Shown in pieces: positions 25,569 to 48,241 of a stretch of DNA of 64,000 nt. A model generated the notes under the pieces. It had not been told where the DNA came from, searched no databases, and was given only the letters and a program-made list of their open reading frames with translations. This stretch comes from Jiangella sp. DSM 45060 (lineage in GTDB: Bacteria; Actinomycetota; Actinomycetes; Jiangellales; Jiangellaceae), in contig NZ_LT629771.1 of NCBI RefSeq assembly GCF_900105175.1, positions 3,729,501 to 3,793,500 of the forward strand, in the 5' to 3' direction. Every line of letters starts with the position of its first letter. Position 1 is the first letter of the stretch. Made by a program: the position numbers and the translations under genes.

Positions 25569-26062
25569 GCCGAGACGACGACCAGACCTGGGCCGAGCTG
25601 ATCGACTCGTTCCACGCCTCCCCCAGCGACGGCGACCAGCCGTGGCCCGCGGCCGAGGAGCTGGGCCCGGACGAACGTCTCGACGAGCCGCGCCCCGACG
25701 ACTTCCGCGACGCCTCCGTCACGCTCGGCCCGCTGGCCGGTGGGCGGGGCGGCCCCGGTCCCGATCCCGATCCGGCGGCGCCCGCGCCCGGCATCGACGA
25801 CGCCGCCGCCGAGGAGGCGGCCAACCATTTCGTCCCGCCGCCGCCGGCCCCGATCCCCCGCGGCGACCGCGTCCAGCAACTGGCCTGGGCCGGAGTCATC
25901 GTGCCGCCGATCGCGCTGATCATCGTCGCGATCATGTCCTGGCGCCCGTCCGACGAGATCGTCTTCCTCGCCGTCGTCGCGTTCGTCGCCGGCTTCGTCA
26001 CACTGGTCGCCCGCATGCGCGGCCACCACCCCAACGACCCCGACGACGGCGCCGTCATCTAG
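25565..26062 (+). CDS. Hypothetical protein with two membrane helices
   Basis: This 165-residue protein has an acidic, Pro/Asp-rich N-terminal 100 residues (SPSDGDQPWPAAEELGPDE) and two hydrophobic helices (LAWAGVIVPPIALIIVAIM and IVFLAVVAFVAGFVTLVA), then a short polar tail. The long disordered N-terminus should face the cytoplasm. I do not recognise a family. It overlaps the esterase gene as ATGA. Its TAG stop lies within the target-site copy of the downstream insertion element, which therefore entered right at the gene end without changing the protein. Confidence 0.75.
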   Translation: MSRDDDQTWAELIDSFHASPSDGDQPWPAAEELGPDERLDEPRPDDFRDASVTLGPLAGGRGGPGPDPDPAAPAPGIDDAAAEEAANHFVPPPPAPIPRGDRVQQLAWAGVIVPPIALIIVAIMSWRPSDEIVFLAVVAFVAGFVTLVARMRGHHPNDPDDGAVI

Positions 26063-26063
26063 C
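26058..26063. repeat. Left target-site copy TCTAGC
   Basis: TCTAGC here and at 26710-26715 directly flank the inverted repeats of the insertion element, a six-base target duplication. The TAG within it is the stop codon of the preceding gene. Confidence 0.8.
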
Positions 26064-26663
26064 TGTGATGTCCAGGCAGGTTGTCCAACCGGCTGATGGG
26101 TGGAAGGCCACCGAGGGCTGAGTGGGGCCTGTGGTGGTTGTACTGGTGCAGCCATCCTGGCAGTGCGGCTCGGCGGGCGTGCTCTGAGCGGTAGAGCTTC
26201 TTGTAGGCCCAGCTGTCGGACAGGACCCGCTCGATGGTGATACCGCGGTCGGCGGTTCCGGTCACCTCGCTGTCGACCGAGGTAGCGCCACCCGCCGCCG
26301 TCGGGGATGTTCCCGAACTTGGTGACATCGACATGGATCAACTCGCCCGGCTGCTCACGCTCATACCTGCGAGCTGGTTCGCCGCTCACCCGGTCGATGT
26401 GGGAGAGCCGGCACCGCCTCAGCACCGCATGCACGGTCGATGCCGCCATGTTGAGCTTCGCGGCGATCGGGACCGTCCCGAGCCGCTGCTTCCACCGCAG
26501 GTGCACGATCTTGCGCACCACCGGGGCCGGTGTCCTGGCGTGCTGGGTGTGCCGGGCCGAGGATCGATCGGCCATCCCCGCCAGCCCCTCGTCTCGAAGG
26601 CCTCCTCGGAAGTGAAGCGGTTCCTCGACAGCTCCACTCCACAACCGGGAGGCCTTCACCCAT
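26059..26663 (-). pseudogene. IS481-family transposase remnant
   Basis: Reading frames on the minus strand hold pieces of one transposase. The upstream part has GMADRSSARHT, VVRKIVHLRWKQRLG and SHIDRVSGEPARRYE, ending in the first catalytic stretch (LIHVDVTKFGNIPDGGGWRYLGRQ). A frame change follows, then ITIERVLSD, which jumps straight to SWAYKKLYRSEHARRAALPGWLHQYNHHRPHSALGG. The segment that would carry the second Asp and the Glu of the DDE triad is missing. The protein is therefore inactive. A recognisable N-terminal helix-turn-helix is also lacking. Confidence 0.85.
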
Positions 26664-26709
26664 CTACCACAACGCCGTAACCGATCGCACAACCTGCCTG
26701 GACATCACA
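26064..26709 (-). mobile_element. IS481-family element, 646-bp internally deleted copy
   Basis: The element has perfect 21-base terminal inverted repeats: 26064-26084 (beginning TGTGATGTCCAGGC) and 26689-26709 (ending GGACATCACA). It is flanked by the direct repeat TCTAGC. A full IS481 copy would be near 1 kb, so about a third is missing. Intact ends and target copies show that it transposed into this place, perhaps already shortened (MITE-like, mobilised in trans), or was deleted later. Confidence 0.88.
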
Positions 26710-29383: not shown

Positions 29384-29472
29384 CAGCGCAGCCTACGGAC
29401 GTGATGGAGGTCATGTCACAATCCGTGCCGCGCATCGGTCCTAGTAGTAGGAGCGATCGCGAGGAGTGCGAC

Positions 29473-31026
29473 ATGCCCGACCTGACGAGACACCGGCTGG
29501 TCACCGCGGTGGTCGGCCTGGCCGACCGGCACGGACGACCGGCCCGGATCCGCGGCCCGCGGCGGTGGACGGACCTGTTCGTCCCGCTGGCCGTGGTCAG
29601 CTTCCTGCTGGTGCTGGTGTCCGGAATGCTGCTGGCGTTCTGGTTCGAGCCGTCCATGCGGCCGGTCGTCTACGCCGGCGACTACGCGCCGCTGCGCGGC
29701 GTGACGATGTCCGAGGCGTACGCGTCGACGGTGCGCATCTCGATGGAGGTGCCGGGCGGCCTGCTGGTCCGCCAGGTGCACCACTGGGCGTCGCTGGTGT
29801 TCATCGCGGCGCTGTCGGCGCACCTGCTGCGGGTGTTCCTGGCCGGCGCGTTCCGCGGCTACCGCCGCCTCGTCTGGCTGATCCTGCTGGCGCTGCTGGT
29901 GCTGAGCATCGCCGAGGCGTACCTCGGCCACTCGCTGCCGGACGACCTGCAGTCCGGCACCGGCCTGCGGGTCACCGAGGGGTACCTGCTGGCCACGCCG
30001 GTCGTGGGCACCTGGCTGTCGTGGCTGGTGTTCGGCGACGAGTTCCCCGGCGACCAGATCATCGGCCGGCTGAACACTGTGCACGTGTGGGTGCTCCCGG
30101 TGCTGATCGTGGGCCTGGGCGCCGCCTGGGCGCTGCTGGCGTACCGGCGCTGGCGTGCCGCGCCGCCGGCCGACGGCGACCCGCCGCGGCGGTACGCCGT
30201 CCGCATGGGCGGGCTGGCGCTGGTGGTCTCCGGCGCGATCGTCGCGATGTCGGCGCTCGTGCAGGTCAACCCGGTCTGGCTGTGGGGGCCGTTCGACGCC
30301 TCGCAGGCGCCGGCCGGCAGCCGTCCGCCGTGGTATCTCGGGTTCCTCGACGGCGCGGTGCGGCTGATGCCTCCGTGGGAGGTGGACGTGTTCGGCTACA
30401 CGCTGACGCTGAGCGTCCTGATCCCGGTCATGGTGCTGCCCGGGGTGCTGCTGGGGACGCTCGCGCTGTACCCGTGGTTCGAGCAGTGGGCCACCCGCGA
30501 CCGCCGCGACCCCGACGTCCTCGACCGGCCCCGCGACCTGCCGGTGCGCACCGCGCTGGTGGCGGCGTTCGTCGCGTTCTACCTGGTGCTGTGGATCGCC
30601 GGCGCCACCGATGTCGTCGCCACGCTGCTGCACGTCCCGCTCGACCCGCTGGTCCGGTTCCTGCAGGTGGCCGTCGTCGTCGTGCCGCCGCTGGCGTTCT
30701 GGGTGACGAAGCGGATCCTGCTGGGGCTGCGGCTGCGCGACCTGGACGAGCTGCGGCACGGGCACGCCACCGGCATCGTCGTCGTCAGTCCCGAGGGCGG
30801 GTTCAGCGAGCTGCACCGGCCGCTGACGGCTCAGGAGGCGCAGCGGCGGGCGCCGCACGAGGCACTGGTGCCGGCCGGCGCCGTCGCGGCCTCCGACGAG
30901 CACGGCGTCCCGAACCCGCGCTACCGAGCCGACCGGCCCCGGGCGCTCGCGTCGCGGTTCTACTTCGCCGATCTTCCCGGCAACCGACCCGTCTCCGGCG
31001 ACGTCCAAGTGAAGGAGCATGGTTGA
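29473..31026 (+). CDS. Orphan cytochrome b, QcrB paralogue lacking one haem ligand
   Basis: This 517-residue membrane protein aligns end to end with QcrB (46601-48241), from FEPSM/FKPTM and GVTMSEAYAST through HSLPDDLQSGTGLR, NPVWLWGP, WYLGFLDGAVRLMPPWE to VPNPRYRADRP. Helix B keeps both haem histidines (His103, His117). Helix D keeps His204, but the position matching QcrB His224 is Trp219. Haem bH should thus lose an axial ligand. No qcrA or qcrC neighbours exist here; two serpin genes follow after 21 bases. ATG 29473 follows GAGGAGTGCGAC. Electron transfer through the b haems is doubtful. Confidence 0.9.
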   Translation: MPDLTRHRLVTAVVGLADRHGRPARIRGPRRWTDLFVPLAVVSFLLVLVSGMLLAFWFEPSMRPVVYAGDYAPLRGVTMSEAYASTVRISMEVPGGLLVRQVHHWASLVFIAALSAHLLRVFLAGAFRGYRRLVWLILLALLVLSIAEAYLGHSLPDDLQSGTGLRVTEGYLLATPVVGTWLSWLVFGDEFPGDQIIGRLNTVHVWVLPVLIVGLGAAWALLAYRRWRAAPPADGDPPRRYAVRMGGLALVVSGAIVAMSALVQVNPVWLWGPFDASQAPAGSRPPWYLGFLDGAVRLMPPWEVDVFGYTLTLSVLIPVMVLPGVLLGTLALYPWFEQWATRDRRDPDVLDRPRDLPVRTALVAAFVAFYLVLWIAGATDVVATLLHVPLDPLVRFLQVAVVVVPPLAFWVTKRILLGLRLRDLDELRHGHATGIVVVSPEGGFSELHRPLTAQEAQRRAPHEALVPAGAVAASDEHGVPNPRYRADRPRALASRFYFADLPGNRPVSGDVQVKEHG

Positions 31027-31047: not shown

Positions 31048-32340
31048 ATGTCCCTGCCCCGCGTGGCCGGCGCGGTGCTCGCCGGCGCGTTGCTGCTGGC
31101 CGGCTGCGGTTCCGCGGCCGACCACGGGACTGACGACACATCCACCGGCACCCCCGCGGCCGGCGCCCCGTCCACCGAGGCGCCGGCCGCCGATCCGGGG
31201 CCGGCGCCGCGCATCGACGTCGTCGCCGACCTCGCGCCCGCCGACGCCGGCACCGTCGCGGCATCGGTCAACCAGTTCGGCTTCGACCTGCTCGGCCAGC
31301 TGAGCGACGGCACCCAGAACACCGTCACCTCCCCCGTCTCGGTGGCGTCGCTGCTGGCCATGGTGCTGGCCGGAGCCGGCGGCGACACCGCCTCCGCCAT
31401 GGCGGGCACCCTGCACCTCGACGACCCGCGTGACGTCCGGGTCGGTGCCCTGCTGGACCAGCTGGCCGACACCACCGACGTCACGCTGGCGCCGGCCAAC
31501 GCGCTGTGGACGCAGCAGGGCGTGCCGTTCGAGGCCGACTACCTGTCCTTCGTCCGCGACTCCTTCGGCGCGACCATCGACGAAGCCGACCTCGGGTCGC
31601 AGGACACCGCCGACGACATCGACGCCTGGGTGCGCGACGCCACCGAGGACCGCATCGACGGCATCGCCGCCGACCTCGGCCTGCCCGACCCCGAGGCGGC
31701 GCTGGTGCTGGTCAACGCGGTGCACTTCCTCGGCACGTGGACCACGCAGTTCGACCCCGCCGACACCCAGACGCAGGCGTTCACGCTGCCCGACGCGAGT
31801 ACCGCCGACGTGCCGCTGATGTTCCTGCGCGAGCAGACACTGCCGTTCGTCCAGCGCGACGGCTATTCCATGCTGCGGCTGCCCTACGGCGCCGACGGCC
31901 GCTACGGCATGGAGATCCTGCTGCCCGACGACCCCGCCGGCCTGCCGCGGCTGCTGTCGTCCCTCGACGCCGCCGAGTGGTCGGCCGCCGTGGGCGCGCT
32001 GGCGCCACTGGAGCTGCAGACCGTCGCGGTGCCGAAGTTCGAGCTCGAATGGGACGCCGACCTCGGCGACGCGCTGACGGCGCTCGGCATGGGCCCCGCC
32101 TTCCAGAACGCCGACTTCCGGCCGATGTCGGCCTACCCGCAGGCGCTCGACACCGTCGTGCACAAGACCTACATCCGGGTCGACGAAGCCGGCACCGAGG
32201 CCGCGGCCGTCACCGGCGGCGTCACCCGCAGCTCGGCCGGCCAGAGCTTCCGCGCCGACCGTCCGTTCGCGTTCACCATCTCCGACAGCCAGACCGGCGC
32301 CATCGTCTTCCTCGGGGCGGTGACCGACCCGCGCGGCTGA
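31048..32340 (+). CDS. Lipoprotein serpin (serine protease inhibitor) 1
   Basis: The 430-residue protein has a lipobox LLAGC (Cys20) and a low-complexity linker to residue 55. The serpin fold follows: NTVTSPVSVASLLAMVLAGAGG, ANALWTQ, LVNAVHFLGTW, VPLMF, and the conserved C-terminus DRPFAFTISDSQTGAIVFLG. The hinge DEAGTEAAAVTGG (from residue 379) is the small-residue hinge of inhibitory serpins; the following loop is VTRSSAGQS, about residues 392-400. It should trap serine proteases outside the cell. It forms an operon with the cytochrome b paralogue and the next serpin. RBS GGAGGTG precedes ATG 31048. Confidence 0.95.
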   Translation: MSLPRVAGAVLAGALLLAGCGSAADHGTDDTSTGTPAAGAPSTEAPAADPGPAPRIDVVADLAPADAGTVAASVNQFGFDLLGQLSDGTQNTVTSPVSVASLLAMVLAGAGGDTASAMAGTLHLDDPRDVRVGALLDQLADTTDVTLAPANALWTQQGVPFEADYLSFVRDSFGATIDEADLGSQDTADDIDAWVRDATEDRIDGIAADLGLPDPEAALVLVNAVHFLGTWTTQFDPADTQTQAFTLPDASTADVPLMFLREQTLPFVQRDGYSMLRLPYGADGRYGMEILLPDDPAGLPRLLSSLDAAEWSAAVGALAPLELQTVAVPKFELEWDADLGDALTALGMGPAFQNADFRPMSAYPQALDTVVHKTYIRVDEAGTEAAAVTGGVTRSSAGQSFRADRPFAFTISDSQTGAIVFLGAVTDPRG

Positions 32341-32361
32341 GGCACCACGGTTGGGGGCGAC

Positions 32362-33597
32362 ATGTCGTACACCCGGTTGATCGCTGGCCTGCTGGCCGGC
32401 GGGATCCTGGCCACGGCCTGCGGTACGGCCACCGCACCGGACACGCGGCCCACCGGCGGCCCCGCGTCGCTGCGGCTGGTGGCCGACCTCGACCCGGCCG
32501 ACGCCGGCGCCGTCGGCGCGTCAGTCAACCAGTTCGGTTTCGACCTGGTGGCCCAGGTCGGCGACGGCACCGAGAACATCGTCACGTCGCCGGTGTCCGC
32601 GGCCGCGCTGCTGGCCATGGTGCTGGCCGGGGCCGGCGGGCCGACGGCGGACGAGATGGCCGCAGTCCTGCACCTGGAGGACTCCCGCGACGTCCGGGTC
32701 GGCGCGCTGCTGCGCGAGCTGGCCGACACCGACGACGTCACGCTCTCCGTCGCCAACGCCCTGTGGGCACGCGACGGCTATCCGTTCACCGACAGCTACC
32801 TCGCGTTCGCCCGCGACTCCTTCGGCGCCACCGTCGACGAGGCCGACCTCGCCTCGCAGGACACCGCCGACGAGATCGACGCCTGGGTCCGCGAGCAGAC
32901 GGAGGACCGCATCGACGACATCGCCGCCGACCTCGGCCTGCCGAGCGGCGACGCCGTCCTCGTGCTGCTGAACGCGGTCTACTTCCTCGGCACCTGGACC
33001 ACTCAGTTCGACCCCGAGGACACCCGCGACGGCGGCTTCCGGCTGGCCGACGGCACCACGGTGACGGTGCCGATCATGCATCTCCCCTCGACCTCCCTGT
33101 CGCTGGCTCAGCGCGACGGCTACTCCATGCTGCGGCTCCCCTACGGCGAGGACGAGCGCTACGCCATGGAGATCCTGCTTCCCGACGACGACAGCGCGCT
33201 TCCGGACCTACTGGCGTCGCTCGACGCCACCGAGTGGGCCGCCGCCGTCGGCGAGCTGCGGGAGCAACACGTGAGCGAGCTGGCGCTGCCCCGCTTCGAG
33301 CTGGAATGGAAAGCGAACCTCAACGAGCCGCTCCGCGCCCTCGGCATGCACGACGCGTTCGGCGGGGGTGACTTCACACCGATGTCGCCGGAGAACCCGT
33401 TTCTGGCCACCGTCGTGCAGAAGACCTACCTATGGGTCGACGAGGCCGGCACCGAGGCGGCCGCCGTCACCGGCGGGATGATGGCGGAGTCGGCGGGCAG
33501 TGGGTTCCGCGTGGACCGGCCGTTCGCGTTCACCATCTCCGACAGCCAGACCGGGACGATCCTGTTCCTCGGTACCGTCGCCGACCCGCGCGGCTGA
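32362..33597 (+). CDS. Lipoprotein serpin 2 (tandem duplicate)
   Basis: This 411-residue protein is close to serpin 1 along its length (for example DAWVREQTEDRIDDIAADLGL and RDGYSMLRLPYGEDERYAMEI). The lipobox is ATAC (Cys20) with a shorter linker. The inhibitory hinge DEAGTEAAAVTGG (from residue 360) is identical, but the exposed loop is MMAESAGSG, where serpin 1 has VTRSSAGQS. The pair thus shares a scaffold but offers different bait sequences, likely to different proteases. The 21-base gaps upstream of both serpin genes are the same length. The duplication was probably local. Confidence 0.94.
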   Translation: MSYTRLIAGLLAGGILATACGTATAPDTRPTGGPASLRLVADLDPADAGAVGASVNQFGFDLVAQVGDGTENIVTSPVSAAALLAMVLAGAGGPTADEMAAVLHLEDSRDVRVGALLRELADTDDVTLSVANALWARDGYPFTDSYLAFARDSFGATVDEADLASQDTADEIDAWVREQTEDRIDDIAADLGLPSGDAVLVLLNAVYFLGTWTTQFDPEDTRDGGFRLADGTTVTVPIMHLPSTSLSLAQRDGYSMLRLPYGEDERYAMEILLPDDDSALPDLLASLDATEWAAAVGELREQHVSELALPRFELEWKANLNEPLRALGMHDAFGGGDFTPMSPENPFLATVVQKTYLWVDEAGTEAAAVTGGMMAESAGSGFRVDRPFAFTISDSQTGTILFLGTVADPRG

Positions 33598-44670: not shown

Positions 44671-45522
44671 GTGCCCAGATCGTTGCCCGGCCGACCCCGC
44701 GGCTCGCGGATCGGGCGGCTGCTGTCCACCCGGCGCAGGCACCCGCTCGCCGCGATCGCCGTGCTGGTGGCCGTCCTGTTCACCGCCGGCGGCGCGTACG
44801 CCGCGCTGGCGCCGTCGACGTCGCAGAACGTCCAGGCCGCCTCCTCCACGCAGATCGAGGAGGGCCGGCAGCTGTTCGCCGTCGGCTGTTCCTCCTGCCA
44901 CGGCCTGAACGGCGAGGGCCAGATCAACGCCAACGGCGACGTCCTCGGCCCGTCGCTGATCGGCGTCGGCGCCGCCTCGGTCGACTTCCAGGTCGGCACC
45001 GGCCGCATGCCGCTGGCCGCGCCGTCCGCGCAGGCCATCCGCAAGCCGGTCTCGTACACGCAGGACCAGATCGACGCGCTCTCCGCGTTCGTCGCCTCGC
45101 TGGCGCCCGGCCCGGCCGAGCCCGACGAGCAGTACCTCGACCCGTCCCAGGGCGACGTCGCGCGCGGCGGCGAGCTGTTCCGCACCAACTGCTCCCAGTG
45201 CCACAACACCACCGGTCAGGGTGGTGCTCTGACGATGGGCCAGTTCGCGCCGAACCTCACCGGCGTCGAGCCGAGGCACATCTACGAAGCCATGCTCACC
45301 GGCCCGCAGGCCATGCCGGTGTTCAACGACGCGACGGTCACCCCCGAGGACAAGCGCGACATCATCGCGTTCCTCGACAGCGTGCAGAACGAGGCGGACC
45401 CGGGTGGCCTCGCCATCGGCCGGGCCGGCCCGGTCGCCGAAGGTCTCTGGGCGTGGCTGGTCGGTATCGGCCTGCTGATCGGCATGGCCACCTGGATCGT
45501 GACGAGGTCGTCGAAGGCATGA
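44671..45522 (+). CDS. qcrC: Di-haem cytochrome c subunit of the bc1-type complex
   Basis: The 283-residue subunit has an N-terminal membrane anchor ([21 protein letters not shown]), two haem c sites (CSSCH at 73-77 and CSQCH at 174-178) and a C-terminal membrane helix ([18 protein letters not shown]). The two haems carry electrons from the Rieske centre to the aa3 oxidase, which replaces a soluble cytochrome c. GAGGAGAGAC precedes GTG 44671. It ends in ATGA overlap with qcrA. Confidence 0.95.
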
Positions 45523-46604
45523 GCACGCACAACGTGAACCCCAACGGTGACGAGCACGCGGTCGTTCCCCACGGCGAGCACGCCGTGGTGCCGGCCGACC
45601 CGATCGCCGACCCCGGACTCCACCACGAGGACACCCGGCTCACCGACGTCGACGACAAGGCCGAGCGGCGCGCCGAGCGGCAGGTCGCCGGCATGTTCAC
45701 GCTGGCCGCGCTGCTGACCGTCGCGTTCATCGTCTTCTACGTGGTCGTCGGGATCCACCCCGACGACCCCGAGAACGGCGTGAACATCGGCGACGTCCAG
45801 GTGTCGAACCTGACGCTCGGACTCACGCTGGGCCTCGCGCTGTTCCTCGTCGGCGCCGGCGCCGTCCAGTGGGCGCGGTCGCTAATGACGTCCCCCGAGG
45901 TCGTGCACGAGCGGCACGAGCTGCGCAGCGACGACGAGACCCGCGCGGCCGCGCTGAACGACTTCGAGGTCGGCACCGAGGAGACCGGCTTCGGCCGGCG
46001 CAAGCTGATCCGCAACTCGCTGCTGGGCGCGCTGGCGCTGCTGCCGCTGCCCGCGGTGATCATGCTGCGCGATCTCGGCCCCAACACCGGCGGGACGCCG
46101 GCCCAGCGCAAGGAGCACACCATCTGGGCCGAGGGCGTGCGCGTCCTCACCGACGTCACGTTCATGCCCATCAGGGCCGCCGACCTCGAGATCGGCCAGT
46201 TGGTCAACGCCATGCCGGCGACGTTCGAGGACCTCCCCGAGCACGGGCCCGAGCGCATCAACGAGCGGGCGAAGTCGCCGGTCATGCTGGTGCGCATGCT
46301 GCCCGAGGACATCCACATCGCGCCGGGCCGCGAGAACTGGGGCGTCGACGGCATCCTCGCGTACTCCAAGATCTGCACGCACGTCGGTTGCCCGATCAGC
46401 CTCTACGAGCAGACGACGCACCACATGCTCTGCCCGTGCCACCAGTCGACGTTCGACCTCTCGGACAACGGCAAGGTGATCTTCGGCCCGGCGACGCGGA
46501 GTCTCCCGCAGCTGCCGATCGCCGTAGACTCTGAGGGCTACCTGATCGCACAGAGCGACTTCACCGAGCCCGTGGGGCCGAGCTACTGGGAGCGCACGCG
46601 ATGA
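45519..46604 (+). CDS. qcrA: Rieske iron-sulfur subunit of the bc1-type complex
   Basis: The 361-residue protein has three membrane helices (about 58-79, 97-117 and 166-184), longer than the single helix of most Rieske proteins, as usual for actinobacterial QcrA. The [2Fe-2S] ligands are in CTHVGC (Cys286, His288) and CPCHQS (Cys305, His308), with Cys291 and Cys307 as the disulfide. It takes electrons from menaquinol and passes them to QcrC. It overlaps both neighbours by four bases. Confidence 0.96.
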   Translation: MSTHNVNPNGDEHAVVPHGEHAVVPADPIADPGLHHEDTRLTDVDDKAERRAERQVAGMFTLAALLTVAFIVFYVVVGIHPDDPENGVNIGDVQVSNLTLGLTLGLALFLVGAGAVQWARSLMTSPEVVHERHELRSDDETRAAALNDFEVGTEETGFGRRKLIRNSLLGALALLPLPAVIMLRDLGPNTGGTPAQRKEHTIWAEGVRVLTDVTFMPIRAADLEIGQLVNAMPATFEDLPEHGPERINERAKSPVMLVRMLPEDIHIAPGRENWGVDGILAYSKICTHVGCPISLYEQTTHHMLCPCHQSTFDLSDNGKVIFGPATRSLPQLPIAVDSEGYLIAQSDFTEPVGPSYWERTR

Positions 46605-48241
46605 GCGCCATCGTCAACGGTGCAGGCAAGGTCGTCGACTTCGTCGACCAGCGGATCACCGCGTCCAACTGGCTGAAGCGCAACATCCGCAAGGTCTTCC
46701 CCGACCACTGGTCGTTCCTGCTCGGGGAGATCGCGCTGTTCAGCTTCATCATGATCCTGCTGTCGGGTGTGTTCCTGACGCTCTGGTTCAAGCCGACCAT
46801 GGCGCACATCGCCTACGAGGGCGCCTACCTCCCGATGCGCGGCGTCGGCATGTCCGAGGCGTACGCGTCGACGCTGGAGCTCTCGTTCGAGGTGCGCGGC
46901 GGCCTGCTGATGCGTCAGGTGCACCACTGGGGCGCGCTGATCTTCCTGGCCGCGATGTCGGCGCACATGCTGCGGGTGTTCTTCACCGGCGCGTTCCGCA
47001 AGCCGCGCGAGATCAACTGGCTGATCGGTGTGGTGCTGCTGGTCCTGGGCGTGGCGGCCGGCTTCACCGGCTACTCGCTCCCCGACGACCTGCTGTCGGG
47101 CACCGGCCTGCGGATCATCGAGGGCGGCATGCTCGCCATCCCGATCGTCGGCACCTACATGTCGTCGTTCCTGTTCGGCGGTGAGTATCCGGGCGACGAC
47201 ATCATCGCCAGGCTCTACCCCCTGCACATCCTGCTCGTTCCGGGGCTCATCCTGGCGCTGGTGACGGCGCACCTGATGATCCTCTGGTACCAGAAGCACA
47301 CCCACTGGGGCGGCCCGGGCAAGACGAACAACAACGTCGCCGGCGCGCCGTTCTTCCCGATCTACGTGGCCAAGGCCGGTGGCTTCCAGTTCATCGTCAT
47401 GGGCGTCATCGTCCTGCTGGCGGCGACGATCCAGATCAACCCGGTCTGGCTGTGGGGCCCGTACGATCCATCCGTCGTCTCGGCCGGCACCCAGCCCGAC
47501 TGGTACGTCGGCTTCCTCGACGGCGCTCTACGTGTCATGCCTCCATGGGAGTTCTACGTCTTCGGTCACCCGGTCACGATGAGCGTGCTGATCCCGGCGA
47601 TCCTGCTGCCCGGCATCATCCTGACGCCGCTCGCGCTGTACCCATGGCTCGAGCAGAAGGCGACCGGCGACACCCGCGAGCACCACGTGCTGGACCGGCC
47701 GCGCAACGTGCCGGTGCGGACGGGCATCGGTGTGGCGTTCATCGTCTTCTACATCCTGCTGTGGATCGCCGGCGGTAACGACTTCTTCGCGACGATCCTG
47801 GAGATCCCGGTCAACTGGATCACCTGGTTCATCCGCATCGGCATCTTCGTCCTGCCACCACTGGCGTTCATCATGACGAAGCGGATCTGCCTGGGTCTGC
47901 AGCGCCGCGACCGCGACAAGGTGATGCACGGCCGCGAGACCGGCATCGTCATGGTCAGCCCCGACGGCGAGTTCTCGGAGCTGCACGCGCCGCTGTCGCA
48001 GTCGCAGGCCTACCAGCTGACGTGGCACGAGCGGCAACTGCCGTCCGACCCCGGCCCCGCGACGGACGTCAACGGCATCCCGAACCCGGACTACCGCGCC
48101 AAGCGTGTGCAGGCCCGTCTCTCCCGCTTCTACTTCGGCGACGTCGTGCAGAAGCCGACGCGGGAAGAGCTCGAGGCCGCCCACCACGACGGGCACGGCT
48201 CCGACTCTGCCCGCGACGAACTGCCGAGCGGTCAGCAGTAG
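46601..48241 (+). CDS. qcrB: Cytochrome b subunit of the bc1-type complex
   Basis: The 546-residue subunit holds the two b haems: His108/His122 in helix B (RQVHHWGALIFLAAMSAHM) and His209/His224 in helix D. The quinol-site region reads MPPWEFYVFG. The C-terminal extension (DPGPATDVNGIPNPDYRAKRV) is typical of actinobacterial QcrB. It oxidises menaquinol. A paralogue with Trp in place of His224 is encoded at 29473-31026. The gene ends the ctaE-qcrCAB operon; a hairpin follows. Confidence 0.96.
   Translation: MSAIVNGAGKVVDFVDQRITASNWLKRNIRKVFPDHWSFLLGEIALFSFIMILLSGVFLTLWFKPTMAHIAYEGAYLPMRGVGMSEAYASTLELSFEVRGGLLMRQVHHWGALIFLAAMSAHMLRVFFTGAFRKPREINWLIGVVLLVLGVAAGFTGYSLPDDLLSGTGLRIIEGGMLAIPIVGTYMSSFLFGGEYPGDDIIARLYPLHILLVPGLILALVTAHLMILWYQKHTHWGGPGKTNNNVAGAPFFPIYVAKAGGFQFIVMGVIVLLAATIQINPVWLWGPYDPSVVSAGTQPDWYVGFLDGALRVMPPWEFYVFGHPVTMSVLIPAILLPGIILTPLALYPWLEQKATGDTREHHVLDRPRNVPVRTGIGVAFIVFYILLWIAGGNDFFATILEIPVNWITWFIRIGIFVLPPLAFIMTKRICLGLQRRDRDKVMHGRETGIVMVSPDGEFSELHAPLSQSQAYQLTWHERQLPSDPGPATDVNGIPNPDYRAKRVQARLSRFYFGDVVQKPTREELEAAHHDGHGSDSARDELPSGQQ

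Follow-up and report, generated by a model that had tools for sequence, protein, structure and literature searches.

A Jiangellaceae QcrB paralogue that keeps the haem bL side and lacks key residues of the haem bH and quinone-reduction side

Background

The closest described relatives of the protein analysed here are the cytochrome b subunits (QcrB) of the actinobacterial bcc-aa3 complexes of M. tuberculosis, M. smegmatis and C. glutamicum. The report of the C. glutamicum structure describes menaquinone lying against QcrB Glu38 at the quinone-reduction site, as well as a glutamate of the C-terminal QcrB extension that links to the D-channel of the oxidase (PMC8795186). The corresponding account for M. 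tuberculosis places menaquinone against Phe39, Glu49, Leu225, Leu232, Trp236 and Phe262 of QcrB (PMC8616580). On the opposite side, at the Qo site, C. glutamicum Tyr153 is described as hydrogen-bonding stigmatellin and Asp295 as the start of a second proton path. The ligands of haem bH have been altered by engineering in R. capsulatus, where cytochrome b carrying H212K is reported to still bind a functional haem bH (PMC4807273). In a dimer whose halves carry, respectively, the H212N knock-out of haem bH and an inactive Qo site, electrons are reported to cross both haems bL and to make use of the bH of the partner (PMC4330944). A second described system bears on the promoter of the gene. ECF41 promoters are given as TGTCACA-n16-CGTC, the spacer being 16 +/- 1, and the known ECF41 targets are listed as carboxymuconolactone decarboxylases, oxidoreductases or epimerases (PMC3426412); the word 'cytochrome' is absent from the main text of that paper.

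The present analysis concerns a second QcrB-like gene of Jiangella sp. DSM 45060, located in a stretch of 64,000 nucleotides (hereafter the window) that also contains the qcr-cta cluster. The paralogue is called PAR throughout.

Results

Identity and distribution of the paralogue

29473..31026, + strand: QcrB paralogue (PAR), 517 aa, identified by translation, profile matches and tree; predicted bL-only cytochrome b
46601..48241, + strand: canonical QcrB of the qcr-cta cluster, the reference sequence used here
29461..29466, + strand: GAGGAG, likely ribosome binding site for PAR as read from the sequence

Translation of the PAR reading frame in the window gave an intact protein of 517 aa. Profile comparison places this protein within the cytochrome b superfamily (Pfam PF13631, Cytochrom_B_N_2, 136.4 bits with a cut-off of 27) and slightly below the cut-off for actinobacterial QcrB (NCBIfam NF050120, bc1_QcrB_actin, 494.9 bits with a cut-off of 500). 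The genome holds two such cytochrome b genes, PAR and QcrB, and PAR lies outside the qcrCAB cluster, some 15.6 kb away from qcrB in the window. An AlphaFold2 model of PAR based on 37 aligned sequences was of moderate quality (mean pLDDT 77.5, pTM 0.78), and a Foldseek search with this model ranked C. glutamicum QcrB (7q21_B) at the top (E 9.5e-30, TM 0.78). The model supports the overall cytochrome b fold only, cofactors not being part of it.

PAR was found in all 12 Jiangella genomes, the present one among them, and in four of the ten non-Jiangella members of the family or order; two of the six genomes that lack it are 75-81% complete. A DNA pattern for PPWY(F/L)GFLDG, which is blind to PAR members diverging in that stretch, matched 16 of 393 Actinomycetes genomes with one copy each, all of them Jiangellaceae, which are soil bacteria. 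In a maximum-likelihood tree of 61 cytochrome b rows chosen out of 143 sequence records, the 16 PAR sequences form one branch (support 100/100) that is sister to 19 Jiangellaceae QcrB, and the PAR branches are longer. Because the PAR clade is sister to the QcrB of the family, the duplication is placed no later than the base of the Jiangellaceae. The set of 19 excludes Q3_G019, a divergent third QcrB that was counted among 27 other QcrB. This sequence (genome G019, L129 3795-6173) is very divergent, falls outside the family QcrB and keeps the four histidines and PDWY.

Reading frames are intact in all 16 PAR genes. Suspected frameshifts in the PAR of genomes G009 and G016 were rejected, the split matches being single open frames; in the G009 gene (L124 1276-3006), about 30 residues are inserted in frame immediately after helix D, near residue 230. 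Nei-Gojobori dN/dS values were 0.14-0.36 for PAR (nine pairs) versus 0.10-0.15 for QcrB (six pairs). PAR is under purifying selection, though approximately 2-3 times less constrained than QcrB in most pairs, so that slow decay is possible.

Haem ligands

29779..29781, + strand: H103, helix-B haem bL ligand (QcrB H108)
29821..29823, + strand: H117, helix-B haem bH ligand position (QcrB H122); Gln or Tyr in 5 of 16 orthologues
30082..30084, + strand: H204, helix-D haem bL ligand (QcrB H209)
30127..30129, + strand: W219, codon TGG, replacing the helix-D haem bH ligand (QcrB H224)

An earlier note on this DNA had claimed that PAR keeps His103, His117 and His204 and has Trp219 where QcrB has His224. 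Alignment of QcrB H108/H122/H209/H224 with PAR H103/H117/H204/W219, together with the TGG codon, confirmed this assignment. Another histidine at the axial position was looked for, and helix D of PAR has no other; the histidines of the protein are residues 7, 20, 103, 104, 117, 153, 204, 387 and later. A phmmer alignment to 7q21_B puts W219 opposite the same histidine, and in two other phmmer alignments, in which a one-residue gap in helix D shifts the W219 column, there is still no histidine at that position. The second histidine of the HHW pair was also considered as the bL ligand and rejected, the first being invariant in all 16 PAR and spaced 14 from the helix-B bH ligand.

The further suggestion that PAR orthologues might share the tryptophan was not borne out. 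Trp occupies the helix-D bH ligand position in just 6 of the 16 PAR, the others having Gln (two), Arg (two) and Val, Tyr, Ala, Gly, Leu or His (one each), and the idea of a conserved Trp was consequently dropped. Ranked by variability within PAR, this column falls in the top 0.4% of the 486 columns, and it is invariant in QcrB; judged from these residues, the site is simply freed from constraint. The helix-B bH ligand position is His in 11 PAR, Gln in four and Tyr in one. PAR as a group thus departs from actinobacterial QcrB in the two bH histidines (helix D, 1/16; helix B, 11/16) and agrees with it in the bL ligands, which are His at both sites in every PAR. Among 110 distinct non-PAR cytochrome b rows, counted after identical 100-330 segments had been merged, 109 have all four histidines, and the remaining row, a fragment, is gapped at two of these positions. 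Given these controls and the variability of the column in PAR, W219 is therefore not a matter of chance. The single PAR with all four histidines, PAR_G021, may for that reason be able to hold haem bH, yet its helix-C glycine is replaced by Leu/Val and its quinone-reduction-site (QN) Glu is lost.

Haem-packing glycines and the side of the membrane affected

29884..29886, + strand: L138, replacing the N-side helix-C glycine (QcrB G143)

In cytochrome b, helices A and C each carry a pair of glycines spaced 14 apart, and these glycines pack against the two haems. Published support for this packing was searched for and not found. Both bL-side glycines are kept in all 16 PAR. On the bH side, Leu or Val stands in place of the helix-C glycine without exception, and the helix-A glycine is lost in half of the members (8/16). 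All four glycines are present in 109 of the 110 controls, the exception again being the fragment. Since the helix-C glycine is gone from every PAR, even from the four-histidine G021, the bH pocket was probably filled before, or together with, the release of the histidine.

A comparison of identities within PAR and within QcrB from the same eight Jiangella genomes, with helix borders set by hand, locates the divergence more broadly. Mean identity on the N side was 0.709 for PAR versus 0.951 for QcrB, and on the P side 0.845 versus 0.937. In PAR, identity dropped in the two zones around bH/QN, the DE loop (0.41 versus 0.96) and the N-half of helix D (0.55 versus 0.98), and in the N-terminal segment (0.55 versus 1.00), while values close to those of QcrB were kept by the EF (Qo) loop (0.93 versus 0.95) and by the P-half of helix B (0.93 versus 0.97). 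Exceptions to this bias occur in both directions, with 0.94 for the N-side FG loop and 0.69 for the P-half of helix D. In the N-side BC loop, QcrB E137 is Arg in all 16 PAR and K134 is Gly in 15, a fixed charge change on the bH side.

Quinone sites and C-terminal extension

29584..29586, + strand: P38, replacing the quinone-reduction-site Glu (QcrB E43; C. glutamicum E38, M. tuberculosis E49)
29929..29931, + strand: H153, replacing QcrB Y158 (C. glutamicum Tyr153)
30325..30336, + strand: PPWY, replacing the Qo motif PDWY

The quinone-reduction-site Glu is Pro, His or Gln in the 16 PAR and Glu in all 46 QcrB rows of the same alignment. The position of M. tuberculosis Trp236 is never Trp in PAR; this loss weighs little because the position varies in other QcrB too (Trp in just 10 of 27). 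The Lys that feeds the quinone-reduction site in C. glutamicum is Lys or Arg in every PAR, which speaks against complete loss of the site.

At the Qo site, PPWY stands in place of PD(W/F)Y in 16 of 16 PAR. The controls have PDWY or PDFY in 109 of 110 cases, and the exception is a distant cytochrome b with PLWF. This distant protein (G050, locus L138 4052-5563) has the four histidines and no QN Glu. PVWY and PPWF occur naturally, and the second position of the Qo motif is not always acidic; given these natural motifs, PPWY is not claimed as proof of a dead Qo site. Column correspondence pairs M. tuberculosis Y161 with C. glutamicum F150, and C. glutamicum Y153 with QcrB Y158, a position held by His in 14 PAR and by Asn in two. 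The equivalent of Asp295 is the very residue that has become Pro, and the FeS-side residues for proton release at Qo (D/R/D) are kept throughout. With these Qo residues altered (D to P, Y to H/N), it is doubtful whether PAR oxidises quinol. The oxidase-docking Glu of the C-terminal extension is kept in all members. Its loss had been suspected from position 457 and was rejected, C. glutamicum E453 aligning with E460, the residue kept in 16 of 16.

Promoter motif and ECF41-type sigma factors

29414..29440, + strand: ECF41-type promoter motif TGTCACA-n16-GGTC, 59 bp upstream of the PAR ATG

An ECF41-type promoter motif precedes every PAR gene in its loose form and 12 of the 16 in its strict form. 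First-order Markov shuffles gave an expectation of 0.16 for the loose motif in these 16 upstream regions, which are related rather than independent sequences, although the site is common to genera with differing surroundings. In the four non-Jiangella genomes, the gene that divergently adjoins PAR encodes a SigJ/ECF41-type sigma factor (three identified by scan and the fourth, L146, by the resemblance of its start), and an ECF41-type motif was also detected upstream of all four of these sigma factor genes.

The present genome contains 15 strict motif sites, compared with one for the control pattern read backward. For eight of the 15 sites an ECF41-like gene is found no more than 1.1 kb away, versus 0.10 expected at random, a count based on the first 17 of 35 sigma factor matches; from these same first 17 matches, the number of ECF41-like sigma factor genes in this genome is about 17. 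The closest relative here of the PAR-neighbouring sigma factor (G000:C1:998967-999827, 73% identity) is divergent from a carboxymuconolactone decarboxylase gene, the usual ECF41 context. Judged from the ECF41-type promoter motif, expression of PAR is probably confined to a condition to which a SigJ-like sigma factor responds.

Neighbouring genes and possible partner subunits

31048..32340, + strand: lipoprotein serpin 1 (PF00079), 21 bases 3' of PAR, possibly in the same operon
32362..33597, + strand: lipoprotein serpin 2 (PF00079); copy number differs between Jiangella species
44671..45522, + strand: QcrC, the sole match in the genome to the QcrC of the window

By synteny, PAR is followed by a serpin gene in each of the 12 Jiangella genomes and in none of the four others. 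These tandem lipoprotein serpins (window 31048-33597; L035, L151, L147) number one to three copies. Farther upstream, at about 26060-26690 of the window on the minus strand, multi-frame fragments resemble by eye the remains of an integrase-type transposase.

Potential partners of PAR were sought both beside the gene and across the genome. No qcrA or qcrC was recognised beside PAR in the 16 genomes, and a partner Rieske gene adjoining PAR was rejected as a candidate, no Rieske or cytochrome c gene being recognised there. A search of the genome with the window QcrC returned no second qcrC. Five Rieske-domain matches were obtained in the genome, three of which were identified as QcrA, a Rieske-domain flavoprotein and a small lipoprotein-like Rieske protein, while the remaining two departed from the motif applied.

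Discussion

On the evidence of its sequence, PAR is a Jiangellaceae-specific, selected paralogue of QcrB whose bH and quinone-reduction half is without key residues. The earlier note had proposed that the protein may hold one haem only and be unable to run a normal Q cycle; at the level of sequence, the retained bL side and the lost bH side strongly support that proposal, and we infer that PAR holds a single b haem (bL) and is unable to run a Q cycle to completion. Beyond what was then suggested, the comparison of orthologues shows a changed Qo motif and a promoter motif, and indicates that the quinone-reduction side has been dismantled as a whole.

Our preferred reading, to which we assign a probability of roughly 0.55, is that PAR serves as a bL-only, conditionally expressed alternative subunit that works with shared QcrA and QcrC and throttles or re-routes the electrons of bcc-aa3. 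QcrB would have been duplicated in the Jiangellaceae ancestor to give PAR, which would subsequently have lost the electronegative-side half, comprising haem bH and the menaquinone-reduction (QN/Qi) site, and kept the haem bL site, the FeS-side Qo proton path and the C-terminal extension that docks the aa3 oxidase in C. glutamicum. Electron transfer from bL to bH to quinone would then be absent, so that no complete Q cycle could occur. Driven from the ECF41-type promoter, PAR would be made under a condition sensed by a SigJ-like sigma factor, would join the shared QcrA and QcrC either in place of QcrB or as its heterodimer partner, and would in that complex throttle or re-route electron flow through the bcc-aa3 branch. 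With a single qcrC and a single QcrA-type Rieske gene in the genome, assembly with the shared subunits seems the most likely mode; both this assembly and the throttling role are speculative.

A bolder version of the preferred reading is a natural asymmetric bcc dimer, in which stress-induced PAR, under ECF41 control, pairs with QcrB and the two share the single QcrA/QcrC set. The PAR protomer would be without bH and a quinone-reduction site, and electrons could exit only through the bL-bL bridge into the QcrB half. By analogy, the crossing of electrons between the two haems bL in R. capsulatus makes such a heterodimer physically plausible, and we nevertheless regard it as a tentative and rather unlikely arrangement. 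If true, the PAR-QcrB dimer would provide a built-in, inducible means of slowing or re-routing the Q cycle and be the natural counterpart of the engineered cross-inactivated dimers.

The same features could be read differently. PAR might be a redundant duplicate drifting to loss, its ligand change being neutral decay without function. The dN/dS values above those of QcrB and the nine residue types at the helix-D ligand site would fit such a drift, as would the absence of PAR from six of ten non-Jiangella relatives, which indicates that it is dispensable. Decay of this kind would not, however, be expected to leave every frame intact with dN/dS well below 1, to concentrate the losses on one side of the membrane with PPWY, the bL histidines, the bL glycines and the EF loop nearly invariant, or to preserve the promoter motif in all members and the gene in every Jiangella genome. 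We consider decay a poor explanation and its probability low. Retention of a di-haem protein, with haem bH bound through some other ligand, has in its favour the His117 kept in 11 of 16 PAR and the precedent set by the reported R. capsulatus H212K (PMC4807273). Against it, the replacements at the helix-D site include Val, Ala, Gly and Leu, which are unable to ligate, both bH ligands are gone in five members, and no member retains the bH-side helix-C glycine, which has become Leu or Val; a di-haem PAR is accordingly very improbable.

More difficult to set aside is the possibility that PAR acts alone as a bL-only membrane haem protein within an ECF41 response, for example as a periplasmic-side redox sensor or as a one-haem quinone or superoxide oxidoreductase. 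Its own stress-type promoter motif, the intact bL side and the lack of a recognised Rieske or cytochrome c gene nearby are consistent with independent action, and the fixed Qo changes (PPWY in all PAR, His at Y158 in 14) suggest new chemistry over decay. The conserved P-side loops, the FeS-side proton path and the oxidase-docking Glu would, on the other hand, be needless in a protein that never meets the complex, and we judge independent action to be unlikely, if a serious contender. The alternative subunit with shared QcrA and QcrC remains our preferred reading of PAR.

The cytochrome b fold and the knock-out of its haem ligand are already known; what appears to be new is a natural and probably bH-less cytochrome b that carries an ECF41-type motif and is kept across a genus and its relatives. 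Our search of a literature collection that covers few subscription journals found no paper linking Jiangella with cytochrome b, and by title and abstract no bH-less cytochrome b, QcrB paralogue or duplicated actinobacterial qcrB was recognisable. PAR can be regarded as a natural experiment on the Q cycle in which the quinone-reduction half has been selectively dismantled and the other half kept. It offers a wild-type cytochrome b that is predicted to lack bH, a means of testing whether asymmetric bc dimers and the bL-bL bridge are put to natural use, and a candidate respiratory target of ECF41 sigma factors.

Comparison with known systems

PAR resembles the QcrB of actinobacterial bcc-aa3 (M. 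tuberculosis/M. smegmatis, C. glutamicum) in fold, length and C-terminal extension, shares about 36% identity with C. glutamicum QcrB (7q21_B), and likewise retains the bL ligands and the FeS-side Qo residues. Unlike these proteins, it is without the helix-D bH ligand and the QN-site Glu, has PPWY instead of PDWY, and is encoded outside the qcr operon behind an ECF41-type promoter motif. The ECF41 (SigJ-type) regulons are similar to the PAR locus in the TGTCACA-n16-CGTC-type motif and, in four genomes, in the divergent adjacent ECF41 gene; they differ in that their known targets are COE-type enzymes, whereas PAR is a cytochrome b. The haem bH knock-out H212N of R. capsulatus lost the same helix-D bH ligand as PAR. 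That variant, however, is an engineered single change in bc1, while the loss in PAR is natural, fixed in the genus and accompanied by the loss of the quinone-reduction site.
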